A stretch of DNA of 45,645 nt from Ilumatobacteraceae bacterium (GTDB taxonomy: Bacteria > Actinomycetota > Acidimicrobiia > Acidimicrobiales > Iamiaceae). The DNA is taken from the NCBI GenBank assembly GCA_025463265.1, contig JAOBWH010000029.1, positions 1-45,645 on the forward strand. Reading direction: 5' to 3'. Position 1 is the first letter of the stretch. Each line of letters opens with the position of its first letter. A program made the translations under genes and the position numbers. This document shows, piece by piece, positions 24,344 through 28,154 of the stretch. The notes beneath the pieces were generated by a model that was not told the DNA's origin, ran no database searches, and saw only the letters and a list, made by a program, of their open reading frames with translations.

Positions 24344-25351
24344 TCAGGCGGCGGCGACGTCGGCGGCCGGGGCGGTCTGCTCGGTGGCCTTGCCGTCGTC
24401 CTCGTAGATCCCGCAGGCCTTCCAGATCGCCTTGGCGGCGGGCGACATGAGGCCCAGCTCCCGGCAGAGGCGGCGGAGCTTGGCCACCGACTCCTTGCGG
24501 AGCTGGCGGCCCTGGGCGCTGCGCCGCGCTTCGCGCAGCACGGCCTTGGGCACGCCGTGGTGGCGGTTCAGCTCGGCCGACGGGTCGACCATCAGCGGCG
24601 CCATGATCCACAGCACGAGGGGCGTGCGGATGGCCATCATCTGACGGCGGATCCAGCTCAACCGGGGGACGAGGTCCTTGAGGTAGGTCCGGGCGAAGGC
24701 GATGTGGCGCGCTTCTTCGGTGATGTGGATCTTCATGATCTGCTCGATGAGCGGGTGCGTGGTGCCCTCGCGCAGCTGCCGGCGCTGGAGGTAGTCGACC
24801 GGGTCCTCGCCGCCGAGCACCAGGATGAAGAACTGCTCGGGGAGGAGCCGCTGGAAGACGGGCACGATGATCGTCGCCGTGAACCGCAGCCACAGGGGCA
24901 TGCCCCGGACGGGGAGGCCGCTGCGGTTCACCAGCTCCTGGAACATGAGCGAGTGCTGGGACTCCTCGATGATCTCGTGGTGGAGGTAGCGGTACTCGGG
25001 TGCGCCGTTCGGAAGCCGGAAGGCGTAGGACAGCAGGCCCCGCTGGAGGAGGTTCTCGAACTGCATGCCGACCTTGAAGGCGCAGCAGATGCGGTGCAGG
25101 CCGACCTTCGCCTGCACCTCCGGGGTCTGGCTGCGGTACCACTCGGTCTGGGCGAGCGGATCGAACTCGAAGAGGCCGCAACGGGCGTCGTCCGGACCGA
25201 TCTGCAGCTCCGGGTCGTCCCAGTCGATGTCGAGGTAGGCGTCGGATCGCTTCTCGACCGACTGGCGGTTCAGCCGGGGGATCAGGGTGGGAAGCTTGCG
25301 AGCGGGGCGCTCGGTCGTGGACTCGGTGGGGGGAGTGAGGATCGCCGTCAT
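24344..25351 (-). CDS. AurF-like diiron oxygenase
   Basis: This 335-residue helical protein has two ExxH metal motifs, EIIEESQHS (Glu130, His133) and ITEEARHIAF (Glu213, His216), plus Glu99 in QFENLL. These are the ligands expected in AurF-type diiron N-oxygenases and related ferritin-like desaturases. QTEWY, YRYLHHE and FFILVLGGEDPVDYLQR lie between them. The substrate is unknown; nitro-forming amine oxidation is known only for characterised relatives. ATG 25351 has AGGAG 6 nt upstream. The promoter carries a clear operator (25393-25410), so expression is likely repressed by an unlinked regulator. Confidence 0.82.
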   Translation of the reverse strand: MTAILTPPTESTTERPARKLPTLIPRLNRQSVEKRSDAYLDIDWDDPELQIGPDDARCGLFEFDPLAQTEWYRSQTPEVQAKVGLHRICCAFKVGMQFENLLQRGLLSYAFRLPNGAPEYRYLHHEIIEESQHSLMFQELVNRSGLPVRGMPLWLRFTATIIVPVFQRLLPEQFFILVLGGEDPVDYLQRRQLREGTTHPLIEQIMKIHITEEARHIAFARTYLKDLVPRLSWIRRQMMAIRTPLVLWIMAPLMVDPSAELNRHHGVPKAVLREARRSAQGRQLRKESVAKLRRLCRELGLMSPAAKAIWKACGIYEDDGKATEQTAPAADVAAA

Positions 25352-25487: not shown

Positions 25488-26309
25488 TCAGACCAGCGGC
25501 CAGGGCACCCGCTGCCCGGTGTGGTCCACGGGGAACCGGCCTTCGGCCACGAGCGCCCGCGCCCGGGTCCGCAGCGCGTCGCGCTCGAGGGGATCGAGCA
25601 GGTCGGCGAGCGCCTCGGGCAGCGGGCGCTCGACGAAGGCGCACAGGTCCTCCGCGAGATCGGCTGGCAGCGGCTCCCCGCCGAACTCCCAGATGACCGT
25701 CCTGAGCTTGAACTCGGCGTGGAGGCACAGGCCGTTGTCGATGCCCCACAGGTGGCCGCCGCCGTCGATGAGGACGTGGCCGCCTTTGCGGTCGGTGCTG
25801 TTGGCGACGATGTCGAAGGCGCACATCCGCATCAGCTGGGGATGGTTCGCCTCGTCCTCGACGAGCGTGAAGTGGTGCTGCTCGAAGTCGGCGTCGATGA
25901 ACTGCTGCACGGAGCCGATGCCGAAGGGCCCGCTGCGCTCGACGGTGGGCGGCACCACATCCCACCGGATCGCGCGAGCGAGCTCGTACGCCGCGACCTC
26001 GCGCCGGTAGAGCCCGTCGGGGAAGTCCCAGAGCGGACGCTCGCCCGCATGGGGTTTGTAGATCGCCCGGGCGAGCGCCTCGGACTCCGGGTCGATGGGT
26101 GCGACGCCGTCGTCGTCTCCGTCGCCGCCGTCGTGGTCCTCGTCGGCGGGCAGCCCTCCGTCGGGGCGGCGGCCCGGCTCGTGGACCTCGCACAGGAACG
26201 TGGCGTTCGAGCTCCACGGCATCCGGCCCTCGATGACGAGGTCGCCGGTGCGGAGCAGCTCGTCGGGGTCCGCCGGATGGGCCCGGTCAGTTGAGCCGGG
26301 GGCAGGCAT
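25488..26309 (-). CDS. SCO1664-family protein with PI4-kinase-like motifs
   Basis: This 273-residue protein is the third gene of a conserved actinobacterial module. Kinase-like landmarks are visible: a lysine in AIYKPHAGERPLWDFPDG (Lys85), REVAAYELARAI, an active-site-like DIVANSTDRKGGHVLID (Asp166, Asn170, Asp173) and WGIDNGLCLH (Asp191). The last parallels the AIDNGLAF segment of type II phosphatidylinositol 4-kinases. An acidic low-complexity insert occupies about 44-70. No substrate is known. The 23-base overlap with the DUF3090 gene suggests coupling; the conserved N-terminal DELLRTGDLVIEGRM block supports the long start. Confidence 0.8.
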   Translation of the reverse strand: MPAPGSTDRAHPADPDELLRTGDLVIEGRMPWSSNATFLCEVHEPGRRPDGGLPADEDHDGGDGDDDGVAPIDPESEALARAIYKPHAGERPLWDFPDGLYRREVAAYELARAIRWDVVPPTVERSGPFGIGSVQQFIDADFEQHHFTLVEDEANHPQLMRMCAFDIVANSTDRKGGHVLIDGGGHLWGIDNGLCLHAEFKLRTVIWEFGGEPLPADLAEDLCAFVERPLPEALADLLDPLERDALRTRARALVAEGRFPVDHTGQRVPWPLV

Positions 26310-26784
26310 GGCCGCTCGGGTCGATGGGGGCGTCGCAGAGCCGGCAGATCGGACGGCTCGTGGCGAGCAGCGCCTCCACCTGGGCGACGTACGCCTGCAC
26401 CTGCTGCGGCGAGATGCGCAACCGGACCTGGGCCGGCTCTGCGGTCAGCTCGCCCTCGTCGTCGGGCTCCACCATCTCCTCGAACATGACGAGCAGGCGC
26501 CGCTCGTCCCGGTCGACGCCGAGGCTGATGGAGCCGACCGGCCAGAGGAGCTCGGTGGGCGGAAGGGCCTCGGCGGCGGACGCGGCCGCGGCGGCGTCGT
26601 GCGGAAGGTCGTCGAGCAGGCGTTCGAGGTGCTCGGCCAGCGCCTGCGCCTGCTGCTTCTCGCACTTCACCGCGACCTCGACCCCGTCCGCGAACACCTG
26701 GAAGTAGAACACCCGACGCCCCGGCTCCCCGATGGCCCCGACGGTGAAGCGCCCGACGTCGCGCAGATCGTGCGACTCGCTCAC
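26287..26784 (-). CDS. DUF3090 family protein with C-terminal zinc-knuckle motif
   Basis: This 165-residue protein starts at GTG 26784, overlapping the TGA of the phosphomutase gene. A beta-rich N-terminus (RFTVGAIGEPGRRVFYFQV) precedes a long helix, a strand pair (SISLGVDRDERRLLVMFEEM) and the C-terminal ICRLCDAPIDPSGHACPRLN, where Cys147, Cys150, His159 and Cys161 could bind zinc. DUF3090 is known as the middle partner of a three-gene actinobacterial system of unknown function. The preserved gene order and overlapping starts suggest a complex or one pathway. Confidence 0.85.
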   Translation of the reverse strand: MSESHDLRDVGRFTVGAIGEPGRRVFYFQVFADGVEVAVKCEKQQAQALAEHLERLLDDLPHDAAAAASAAEALPPTELLWPVGSISLGVDRDERRLLVMFEEMVEPDDEGELTAEPAQVRLRISPQQVQAYVAQVEALLATSRPICRLCDAPIDPSGHACPRLN

Positions 26785-27443
26785 GACGGGACCAGGACCT
26801 TCAGGTCGTCGCCGGTGGAGTTCACGGCGAGCACGATCGGCGGACCGGCCGAGATCAGGATCGCCGACACCGAGCAGGGGGAGATCACGATGCGCTGGAA
26901 CAGGTCGAGGTGGGTGCCGAGGGCGTGGGCCACCGCCGCCTTGATCGGGTCTGCGTGCGACACCGCCACCACCGTCTCACCCCGGTGCGCAGCGGCGAGG
27001 CGATCGAGCGCGGAGGTCATCCGGGTCTGCATCTCGGTGAACGACTCCCCGCCCGGGAAGCGGAAGCCGCTCGGGTGGCGCTGCACCGCGTCCCACTCGG
27101 CCTTCTTGCGCAGGTCGGACAACTTGGCGCCGGTCCACTCGCCGAACTCGCACTCGAGCAGGCCGCGATCGGTCTTGACCTTGAGCCCGAGCGCCTTGGC
27201 GATGGGCGCTGCGGTCTCCCGCGTCCGCTCCAGCGGTGAGGCGTAGACCGCGGAGACGTTGCGGAGCCCGGCGATGCGGGCGGCCACCGCACCAGCCTGG
27301 GCCCGGCCCGTCTCCGCCAGGTGGAGGCCCTTGGCCCGTCCCGGGAGCGTGGCGCCGGTGGTGGGCGTCTGGCCGTGGCGCACCAGCAGGAGCAGCGTGG
27401 CGGCGGGCGGGGCGGGGGGCTTGGAGCGAGCGGTGGCAGCCAT
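26781..27443 (-). CDS. MSMEG_4193-family phosphomutase-like histidine phosphatase
   Basis: This 220-residue protein has LLLVRHGQTPTTG with the catalytic His23, GRAKGLHLAETGRAQA, YASPLERTRETA (Arg73), LLECEFGEWTGAKL (Glu97) and the second histidine in VAVSHADPIK (His163). These are the standard histidine phosphatase residues, and the KGLHLAETGRAQA and ECEFGEW versions fit the MSMEG_4193 branch. It heads the three-gene module. ATG 27443 is preferred: TAGCGT (27459 to 27454) is a likely -10, and GTG 27455 would overlap it. Confidence 0.85.
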   Translation of the reverse strand: MAATARSKPPAPPAATLLLLVRHGQTPTTGATLPGRAKGLHLAETGRAQAGAVAARIAGLRNVSAVYASPLERTRETAAPIAKALGLKVKTDRGLLECEFGEWTGAKLSDLRKKAEWDAVQRHPSGFRFPGGESFTEMQTRMTSALDRLAAAHRGETVVAVSHADPIKAAVAHALGTHLDLFQRIVISPCSVSAILISAGPPIVLAVNSTGDDLKVLVPS

Positions 27444-27453
27444 CGGTCGGCTC

Positions 27454-27481
27454 ACGCTATCGGCTGACCTGCGGGTACCGT
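27454..27481. promoter_or_regulatory. Divergent -10 hexamers for the phosphomutase and udgB genes
   Basis: TAGCGT on the minus strand (27459 to 27454) lies 10 nt before ATG 27443. TACCGT on the plus strand (27476-27481) lies 7 nt before GTG 27489. Neither start has a Shine-Dalgarno sequence, so both transcripts are probably leaderless or nearly so. Confidence 0.5.
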
Positions 27482-27488
27482 CGCCGCC

Positions 27489-28154
27489 GTGGACAGCCTC
27501 GAGCAGGTGTGCGGTGACGTGGTCTCGTGCTGCGCCTGCCCTCGCCTGGTGGCCTGGCGGGAGGAGGTCGGCCGCGTGAAGCGGGCGGCCTTCCGGGACC
27601 AGGAGTACTGGGCCCGGCCGGTTCCCGGGTTCGGCGATCCGGCCGCAGGGCTCGTGGTGGTCGGCCTGGCCCCGGCTGCGCACGGGGCGAACCGGACCGG
27701 CCGCATGTTCACCGGTGACCGCTCCGGGGACTTCCTCTACGCCGCGCTCCACCGAGCGGGGTTCGCCAACCAGCCCCACAGCGTGAGCATCGACGACGGC
27801 CTCGTGCTGGACGGTGCCTGGATCACGGCGCCCGTGCGGTGCGCGCCGCCGGCCAACAAGCCCACGATCGAGGAGCGCGACACCTGCCGGCCGTTCCTCG
27901 AGCGCGAGCTGGCGCTCCTCCCGCAGGCGACGGTGTTCCTGGTGCTGGGCCAGTTCGGGTACCAGGGGCTGGCCCGGTTCCTGGGCCTGCGGCCCCGGCC
28001 GCCGTTCGGCCACGGGGTCGAGGTGCCGCTCGACGACGGCCGCACCATCTTGTGCAGCTACCACGTGAGCCAGCAGAACACCTTCACGGGGAAGCTCACC
28101 CCCGAGATGCTCGACGCCGTCCTCGAGCGGGCGAACGAGCTGCTCGGCCGCTGA
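27489..28154 (+). CDS. udgB: Family 5 uracil-DNA glycosylase (UdgB type, Fe-S)
   Basis: This 221-residue repair glycosylase has motif A, GLAPAAHGANRTGRMFTGD (59-77), with the GLAPA form typical of family 5, and a second motif CSYHVSQQNTFTG. Cysteines are arranged as Cys14-x2-Cys17 ... Cys118-x14-Cys133, the Fe-S pattern of family 4/5 enzymes. It removes uracil and other damaged bases in GC-rich organisms, where cytosine deamination is a heavy load. GTG 27489 is 7 nt after TACCGT. No LexA box is seen here. Confidence 0.92.
   Translation: MDSLEQVCGDVVSCCACPRLVAWREEVGRVKRAAFRDQEYWARPVPGFGDPAAGLVVVGLAPAAHGANRTGRMFTGDRSGDFLYAALHRAGFANQPHSVSIDDGLVLDGAWITAPVRCAPPANKPTIEERDTCRPFLERELALLPQATVFLVLGQFGYQGLARFLGLRPRPPFGHGVEVPLDDGRTILCSYHVSQQNTFTGKLTPEMLDAVLERANELLGR

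Follow-up and report, generated by a model that had tools for sequence, protein, structure and literature searches.

The closest described relative of the locus analysed here is a gene set that NCBI has already catalogued as three protein families: the histidine phosphatase TIGR03848, the DUF3090 protein TIGR03847, and the SCO1664 protein TIGR03843. NCBI reportedly describes it as a three-gene system with a phosphatidylinositol (PI) kinase relative, and we take the trio to be SCO1664-1666 in Streptomyces and Rv2133c-2135c in mycobacteria, with Rv2135c as the mycobacterial orthologue of the phosphatase. An ordinary member of this set stands in the 45,645 nucleotides of contig JAOBWH010000029.1 from an Ilumatobacteraceae bacterium (assembly GCA_025463265.1), the whole of which we refer to as the window. 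In print, SCO1664 is called "invariably closely linked" to the mycothiol gene mshC (PMC4255298), Rv2135c is a weak acid phosphatase without phosphoglycerate mutase activity (PMC3866925), and the CxxC..HxC motif of DUF3090 is in print (PMC9425974). A preliminary description of the window had called the trio the best candidate for an undescribed pathway, and given these families, the mshC link, the assay, and the motif, "undescribed" is too strong. New here are the predicted folds, an association with mshA, and natural variants of a gene set that was known before.

Two steps of inositol metabolism form the background to that association. MshA makes N-acetylglucosaminyl-inositol phosphate (GlcNAc-Ins-P), from which MshA2 must take the phosphate off (PMC4360819), and the phosphatase for the inositol 3'-phosphate of phosphatidylinositol phosphate (PIP) in PI synthesis is called "yet-unidentified" in PMC6506517. 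The literature, as far as its text was accessible, names MshA2 as a step or gene, with no locus tag found there; nor was any paper found that joins "mycothiol" with "histidine phosphatase", most subscription papers lying outside that search. We found that the trio tracks mshA, the first mycothiol gene, better than it tracks mshC or inositol-phosphate synthase.

In the window, the three genes run on the minus strand from 27443 to 25488 in the order histidine phosphatase, DUF3090, SCO1664-family kinase (open reading frame (ORF) list; Table 1). The preliminary description had named these families and called the genes tightly coupled through a GTGA and a 23-base overlap, and both readings are borne out: the overlaps lie at 26784-26781 and 26287-26309, and all three proteins score above their NCBIfam cut-offs (phosphatase 224 bits against 203.85, DUF3090 127 against 117.25, kinase 248 against 172.4). 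Pfam gives 122 bits for DUF3090 and 178 bits for His_Phos_1. The arrangement is not due to chance. Profile searches of 153 loci (L001-L080, L101-L173) recovered both enzymes at 146, and at 143 of them the genes share a strand and run phosphatase - DUF3090 - kinase. The others are L054, which sits at a contig edge and where a different phosphatase match was taken, L163, which keeps the same order with the kinase 1.5 kb past the phosphatase, and L108, which has both enzymes and no DUF3090. One enzyme is missing at seven loci, namely the kinase at L173 (contig end) and the phosphatase at L044, L055, L058, L071, L114, and L131. Among the 80 closest loci, many are titled Acidimicrobiales, Acidimicrobiia, Microthrix, or Ilumatobacteraceae; other titles give Actinomycetota only or are discordant (Rokuibacteriota, Acidobacteria, Bifidobacterium breve). 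These titles point to Acidimicrobiia as the probable class of the window.

The preliminary description had proposed the co-occurrence of the families as a check, and their separate occurrence proved rare, not frequent. Across 197 genomes of the phylum, with the phosphatase counted at an expect value (E) of 1e-40 or better, SCO1664 occurs in 82 (one of these, G165, was dropped at E 9e-4), DUF3090 in 82, and the phosphatase in 90; all 81 kinase genomes carry DUF3090, and nine extra phosphatase matches (140-157 bits) are under the family cut-off. Within this sample, nothing but contig ends separates the three families: DUF3090 lacks the kinase in G163, where the contig ends 5 bases past it, and the phosphatase in G150, where the contig starts 19 bases ahead of it. 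Natural variants exist elsewhere. In Corynebacterium glutamicum, the control genome, kinase and phosphatase are both matched and DUF3090 is not, and a second copy in G008 (L108, 8930-10263) holds phosphatase and kinase without DUF3090, their profile matches 25 bases apart; the kinase-phosphatase pair can thus do without DUF3090. As the L108 proteins are 66% and 49% identical to those of the window, this pair may have come from a relative of the window's class. In G246, UppP (undecaprenyl-diphosphate phosphatase), the phosphatase, DUF3090, and mshC follow in a row, with a 71-base gap in place of the kinase, so the phosphatase can do without the kinase.

The motifs that had been read in the kinase, Lys85, NSTDRKGGH (170-178), and WGIDNGL (188-194), are found where they were placed, and K85, E104, D173, H178, and D191 are invariant in 96/96 sequences. 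Their likeness to type II PI 4-kinases (PI4K II) is upheld by the AlphaFold model (predicted local distance difference test, pLDDT, 87.2), whose top seven Foldseek matches are all PI4K II structures (E 1e-7 to 7e-6) and which VIA-align superposes on PI4K II beta (9hhm_B) at Z 18.8 over 219 residues (root-mean-square deviation, rmsd, 3.3 Å; 17% identity), ahead of Fam20 (Z 15.3), CtkA (13.4), HipA (11.5), and PI4K III beta (9.6). The predicted fold is therefore closest to PI4K II, and it has a kinase ATP site. Sequence searches give fainter signals: a profile of 22 SCO1664 proteins places PI4K2B first in the PDB at an E of only 0.026 (FAM20A 0.074), and a single-protein PDB search with the kinase gave no match at E up to 10. 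Pfam PI3_PI4_kinase is matched by 21 of the 22 members at E up to 1 (best 6e-8), the window kinase reaching 20 bits against a gathering score of 27.1, while HipA_2 is matched weakly in four (best E 0.065) and Fam20C in one (E 0.037). The active-site Lys corresponds to that of PI4K II by position only, and both Asp residues by alignment, the second weakly. PI4K II enzymes use a palmitoylated cysteine-rich CCPCC motif as a membrane anchor; no CC pair is present in 95/95 kinases, hence no anchor of this type. Because it falls under the Pfam cut-off and lacks the cysteine anchor motif, we regard the kinase as a relative of PI4K II by predicted fold and do not claim PI4K II membership.

The phosphatase carries the branch 1 histidine phosphatase signature (RHG/A motif, second Arg, acid residue, and second His): R22-H23, R73, and H163 are invariant in 91/91 sequences, and position 97 is E in 89 and D in 2. 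Its solved sequence relatives are mostly metabolite phosphatases or mutases (60 of the 97 listed), including phosphoserine phosphatases and CobC.

In DUF3090, C147-x2-C150 ... H159-x-C161 is likewise present as previously placed; the three cysteines never vary in either of two alignments (26 and 58 sequences), and H159 is nearly invariant (90% or more) in the alignment of 26 only, not among the 58. The AlphaFold model (pLDDT 91.7) shows two beta3-alpha repeats. Foldseek found no match for it at E 0.001 or better (best 3k44, E 1.8e-3), and VIA-align gives Z 8.9 against PURA 8chu_A (rmsd 3.5, 113 aligned), a score just above the level reached by models without clear relatives. Five PURA entries head this list (Z 8.5-8.9), and the next entry, a non-PUR one, scores 6.1. 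A resemblance of the predicted fold to repeats I-II of PUR-alpha, a single-strand nucleic-acid binder, is thus suggestive only; no mention of it was found in the accessible text of the DUF3090 literature. A single-protein PDB sequence search with DUF3090 gave no match at E up to 10, and its profile found only two nucleoporin SEH1 chains (E 0.95 and 2).

With mshA called at a match of 360 bits or more in the 197 genomes (most matches outside the class of G023 sit under the curated cut-off, and 27 genomes are over it), mshA occurs in 74/82 trio genomes and 3/115 others (phi 0.885), or, counted the other way, the trio is present in 74 of the 77 mshA genomes. The corresponding phi values are 0.586 for mshC or an mshC-like gene and 0.492 for inositol-1-phosphate synthase, and trio and mshA agree by majority in 52/56 families. 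In a second sample of 118 genomes from the class of G023, taken as Actinomycetes, the kinase occurs in 110, while mshC and the phosphatase each occur in 111 (one mshC and five phosphatase matches fall below cut-off), and these are exactly the same 111 genomes. Kinase and mshC lie less than 5 kb apart in 100/110 and less than 500 bases apart in 85; the other ten retain both genes even though they stand apart, three at about 550 kb and seven on different contigs. Of the seven class genomes without phosphatase and mshC, five belong to a single family (f80), where no mshA match was obtained at E 1e-60 and PIP synthase is matched only weakly. The window genome holds an inositol-phosphate synthase and mshA-like (412 bits), mshC-like (417 bits), and PIP-synthase-like (135 bits) genes, the latter three all under curated cut-offs.

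As our preferred reading, put forward tentatively, the trio would be a soluble kinase/phosphatase pair acting on an inositol-phosphate intermediate of mycothiol synthesis, with the phosphatase as a candidate for MshA2. The phosphatase follows mshA and adjoins mshC, which makes it a reasonable candidate for the MshA2 step, the dephosphorylation of the MshA product GlcNAc-inositol-phosphate; perhaps it is also the PIP phosphatase and might act on the matching 3-phosphate. As an inositol-lipid-kinase fold stands beside a phosphatase, the kinase could act on the same ring, placing a phosphate on one of the inositol hydroxyls in that pool and thereby setting the flow towards mycothiol. DUF3090, with its PUR-like body and putative metal knuckle, would hold or regulate both enzymes as a small regulatory or adaptor protein that is usually present. 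The absence of the kinase from G246 would fit a needed phosphatase and a dispensable kinase, one genome being the basis for this. A more specific version, which we consider unlikely, would make the trio the missing MshA2, a PI4K-II-type kinase that phosphorylates the soluble pseudodisaccharide substrate of MshA2 on its inositol ring, and a PUR-fold metal-binding sensor, together an inositol-phosphate valve on the main actinobacterial thiol; it would possibly also serve PI synthesis, given that an inositol-phosphate ester is the substrate of either phosphatase.

Several observations weigh against the mycothiol reading. The trio occurs without mshA at 360 bits in G007, G017, G028, G061, G067, G077, G179, and G188, and mshA without the trio in G044, G055, and G193. 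Within families, exceptions (G007, G017, G067, G179, G061, G028, G193) outnumber agreements (f34, G103 in f17), and the association mostly reflects deep shared ancestry. An mshC-like gene is missing from 40/82 trio genomes, and outside the class of G023, trio and mshC-like gene are close in 0 of the 23 genomes compared (of 25): in six the two share a contig at a distance of at least 107 kb, and in 17, including the window genome, they are on different contigs. Within that class, mshA and PIP synthase score over the cut-offs in G214 and G296, where neither mshC nor the trio is seen, an absence that may be an assembly gap of the linked block or real. In PMC3866925, the Km values of Rv2135c for the compounds it cleaved were 8-14 mM, and ADP, 3-phosphoglycerate, and glucose-6-phosphate were not hydrolysed; inositol phosphates are not in the assay table. 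UppP, finally, is another frequent neighbour of the trio.

Two narrower assignments were rejected or ranked lower. The trio as strict machinery of mshC, the mycothiol ligase, fails as a phylum-wide rule on the 40 trio genomes without an mshC-like gene, and the trio as a follower of inositol-phosphate synthase is weaker, the synthase being present in 58/115 trio-less genomes.

The mycothiol genes themselves vary. G044 and G055 have mshA-like genes (422 and 417 bits) with neither the trio nor an mshC-like gene, and may use another phosphatase or make another product; no phosphatase was among the three scanned neighbours of mshA there (asparaginase II, a GNAT protein, and a glyoxalase-like protein). 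These neighbourhoods were listed for 14 genomes, the mshA ORF being mis-marked in five (L190, L196, L198, L199, L200). In G013 (L192, 6343-8342), mshA over cut-off (505 bits) is followed directly by a PIG-L deacetylase, which scores best as bacillithiol BshB1 (107 bits, under cut-off), and the genome has no mshC-like gene, perhaps a variant thiol route. An mshC-like gene lies 2.7-6.7 kb from a PIP-synthase-like gene in ten genomes of the window's class (G016, G031, G066, G077, G099, G110, G129, G139, G149, G158), which fits an inositol role for the mshC-like gene; the two are 3.1 Mb apart in G114, of another class, and on different contigs in the other 11 genomes with both.

Doubtful, in our estimate, is a protein-phosphorylation switch, in which a HipA-, CtkA-, or Fam20-like kinase modifies a protein target and the phosphatase reverses the modification; the target may be DUF3090, should this protein be a nucleic-acid-binding regulator. 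Fam20, CtkA, and HipA rank directly after PI4K II in the fold comparison, the PUR-alpha resemblance would suit such a target, and MSMEG_4192, a DUF3090 protein to judge by its locus number, appears among ClpC1 interactors and in a transposon screen; but metabolite enzymes prevail among the solved relatives of the phosphatase, both enzymes occur without DUF3090 in the second copy of G008 and in C. glutamicum, and G246 keeps phosphatase and DUF3090 without the kinase.

A phosphoinositide cycle, with the kinase acting on membrane PI or its mannoside and the phosphatase removing the phosphate from that product or from PIP, strikes us as quite unlikely. PI4K II is indeed the best fold match, some match to the PIP-synthase model exists in 78 of 79 genomes tested, including all trio genomes, and Rv2135c was found with membrane fractions (PMC3866925). 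The PIP-synthase cut-off, however, is passed in only 9 of the 79, and a weak match can stem from another CDP-alcohol enzyme; the kinases have no CC pair for a membrane anchor, and PIP synthase stands over cut-off without the trio in G214 and G296, unless these have gaps. Least probable is a role in envelope metabolism with UppP, unrelated to mycothiol: UppP adjoins the trio in G246 (family scan), lies near it in Tsukamurella (annotation), was identified by eye in a six-locus cluster, and is discussed for Rv2135c/Rv2136c (PMC3866925), and MSMEG_4192 and Rv2134c, presumed DUF3090 proteins by locus number, appear in dibucaine and rifampicin screens, but the commonest real-looking neighbour family is present in only 17 loci (68/73 neighbourhoods anchored), and UppP is not among the seven scanned neighbours in the window.

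Table 1. Features of the three-gene locus in the window.
Feature	Coordinates	Strand	Details and basis
Histidine phosphatase (TIGR03848, MSMEG_4193 family)	26781..27443	-	ATG at 27443, 220 aa; profile score
DUF3090 protein (TIGR03847 / PF11290)	26287..26784	-	GTG start, 165 aa; predicted PUR-like double beta3-alpha fold
Putative metal knuckle C-x2-C ... H-x-C, DUF3090 codons 147-161	26302..26346	-	alignments
SCO1664-family kinase (TIGR03843), predicted type II PI4-kinase-like fold	25488..26309	-	ATG start, 273 aa; profile score and AlphaFold model
Lys85 codon, predicted ATP-binding lysine of kinase	26055..26057	-	invariant 96/96
Asp173 codon (NxTDR motif), predicted catalytic Asp	25791..25793	-	invariant 96/96; aligns with NTDR of PI4K2B
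Asp191 codon (GIDNG motif), predicted metal-binding Asp	25737..25739	-	invariant 96/96; weak separate alignment stretch with IDNGLAF of PI4K2B
GTGA stop/start overlap, phosphatase/DUF3090	26781..26784	-	sequence
23-base overlap, DUF3090/kinase	26287..26309	-	sequence
45-base gap between trio and divergent UDG-like gene	27444..27488	.	ORF list

Upstream of the phosphatase start, across the gap, stands a divergent gene of the uracil-DNA glycosylase (UDG) superfamily (27489-28154, plus strand). The trio promoter probably lies in this gap or inside the UDG-like gene; a consensus scan of the gap found no sigma-70-like site. Among the 44 related loci flanked by more than 5 kb in both directions (neighbour homologues called at E 1e-20), a UDG-superfamily homologue is present at 30, and at 29 of these it is encoded on the other strand from the trio. 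On the other side are an AurF-like N-oxygenase gene (24344-25351, minus strand) and, between it and the trio, a promoter-like TTGACA-18-AATCAT at 25411-25382. We rejected a wider conserved operon, as the AurF-like gene is near the trio in only 2/44 loci, while the GT2 gene and the PMT-like gene are near it in none of the 44. An apparent conserved cluster on the opposite strand (cluster 7) overlies DUF3090 and was taken as an antisense ORF from crude gene calling. A defence or phage system was also rejected: PADLOC gave no defence match for the trio, and in PHROGs only the phosphatase matched, to one family with no assigned function. Plasmid collections gave two records, an 11.85-Mb "plasmid" and a 33.5-kb record that carries genes such as metH and dapA. 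Of three pattern matches in viral contigs none was confirmed, and the only match in phage collections, an SCO1664-like gene in an unverified faecal "Bacteriophage sp." record (L187, MT835969.1), is probably on a bacterial contig.

A conserved phosphatase with matching distribution makes two named steps in the inositol metabolism of Actinobacteria, those of MshA2 and the PIP phosphatase, directly testable. The presence of a PI4K-II-like kinase in an operon widespread among bacteria would bear on the origin and first substrate of that kinase family.

Compared with the TIGR03843/TIGR03847/TIGR03848 set, the window trio has the same order and curated-level scores but does not stand beside mshC, and its kinase differs from the other 21 family sequences in an acidic insert (around residues 48-78) that is short or missing there. 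With PI4K2A and PI4K2B the kinase shares the predicted fold, the Lys/Asp/Asp active-site pattern, and the NTDR and IDNG motifs; unlike PI4K2B, it has His178 at an Asn position (hidden Markov model alignment), and unlike PI4K II generally, it is a bacterial protein of 273 aa without a CC pair, encoded in an operon with a phosphatase. Fam20, HipA, and CtkA have the same wider fold at lower scores, but the window kinase has no Fam20 or HipA Pfam match; HipA toxin kinases have an N-terminal HipA-coupled domain and a HipB partner. The two beta3-alpha repeats predicted for DUF3090 recall the single-strand-binding fold of PUR-alpha and Whirly, from which it differs in its low identity (10-14%) and its extra Cys/His knuckle. 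With the mycothiol pathway (MshA, MshA2, MshB, MshC, MshD) the trio is linked by distribution, with exceptions in both directions: it co-occurs with mshA, and in the class of G023 it adjoins mshC.

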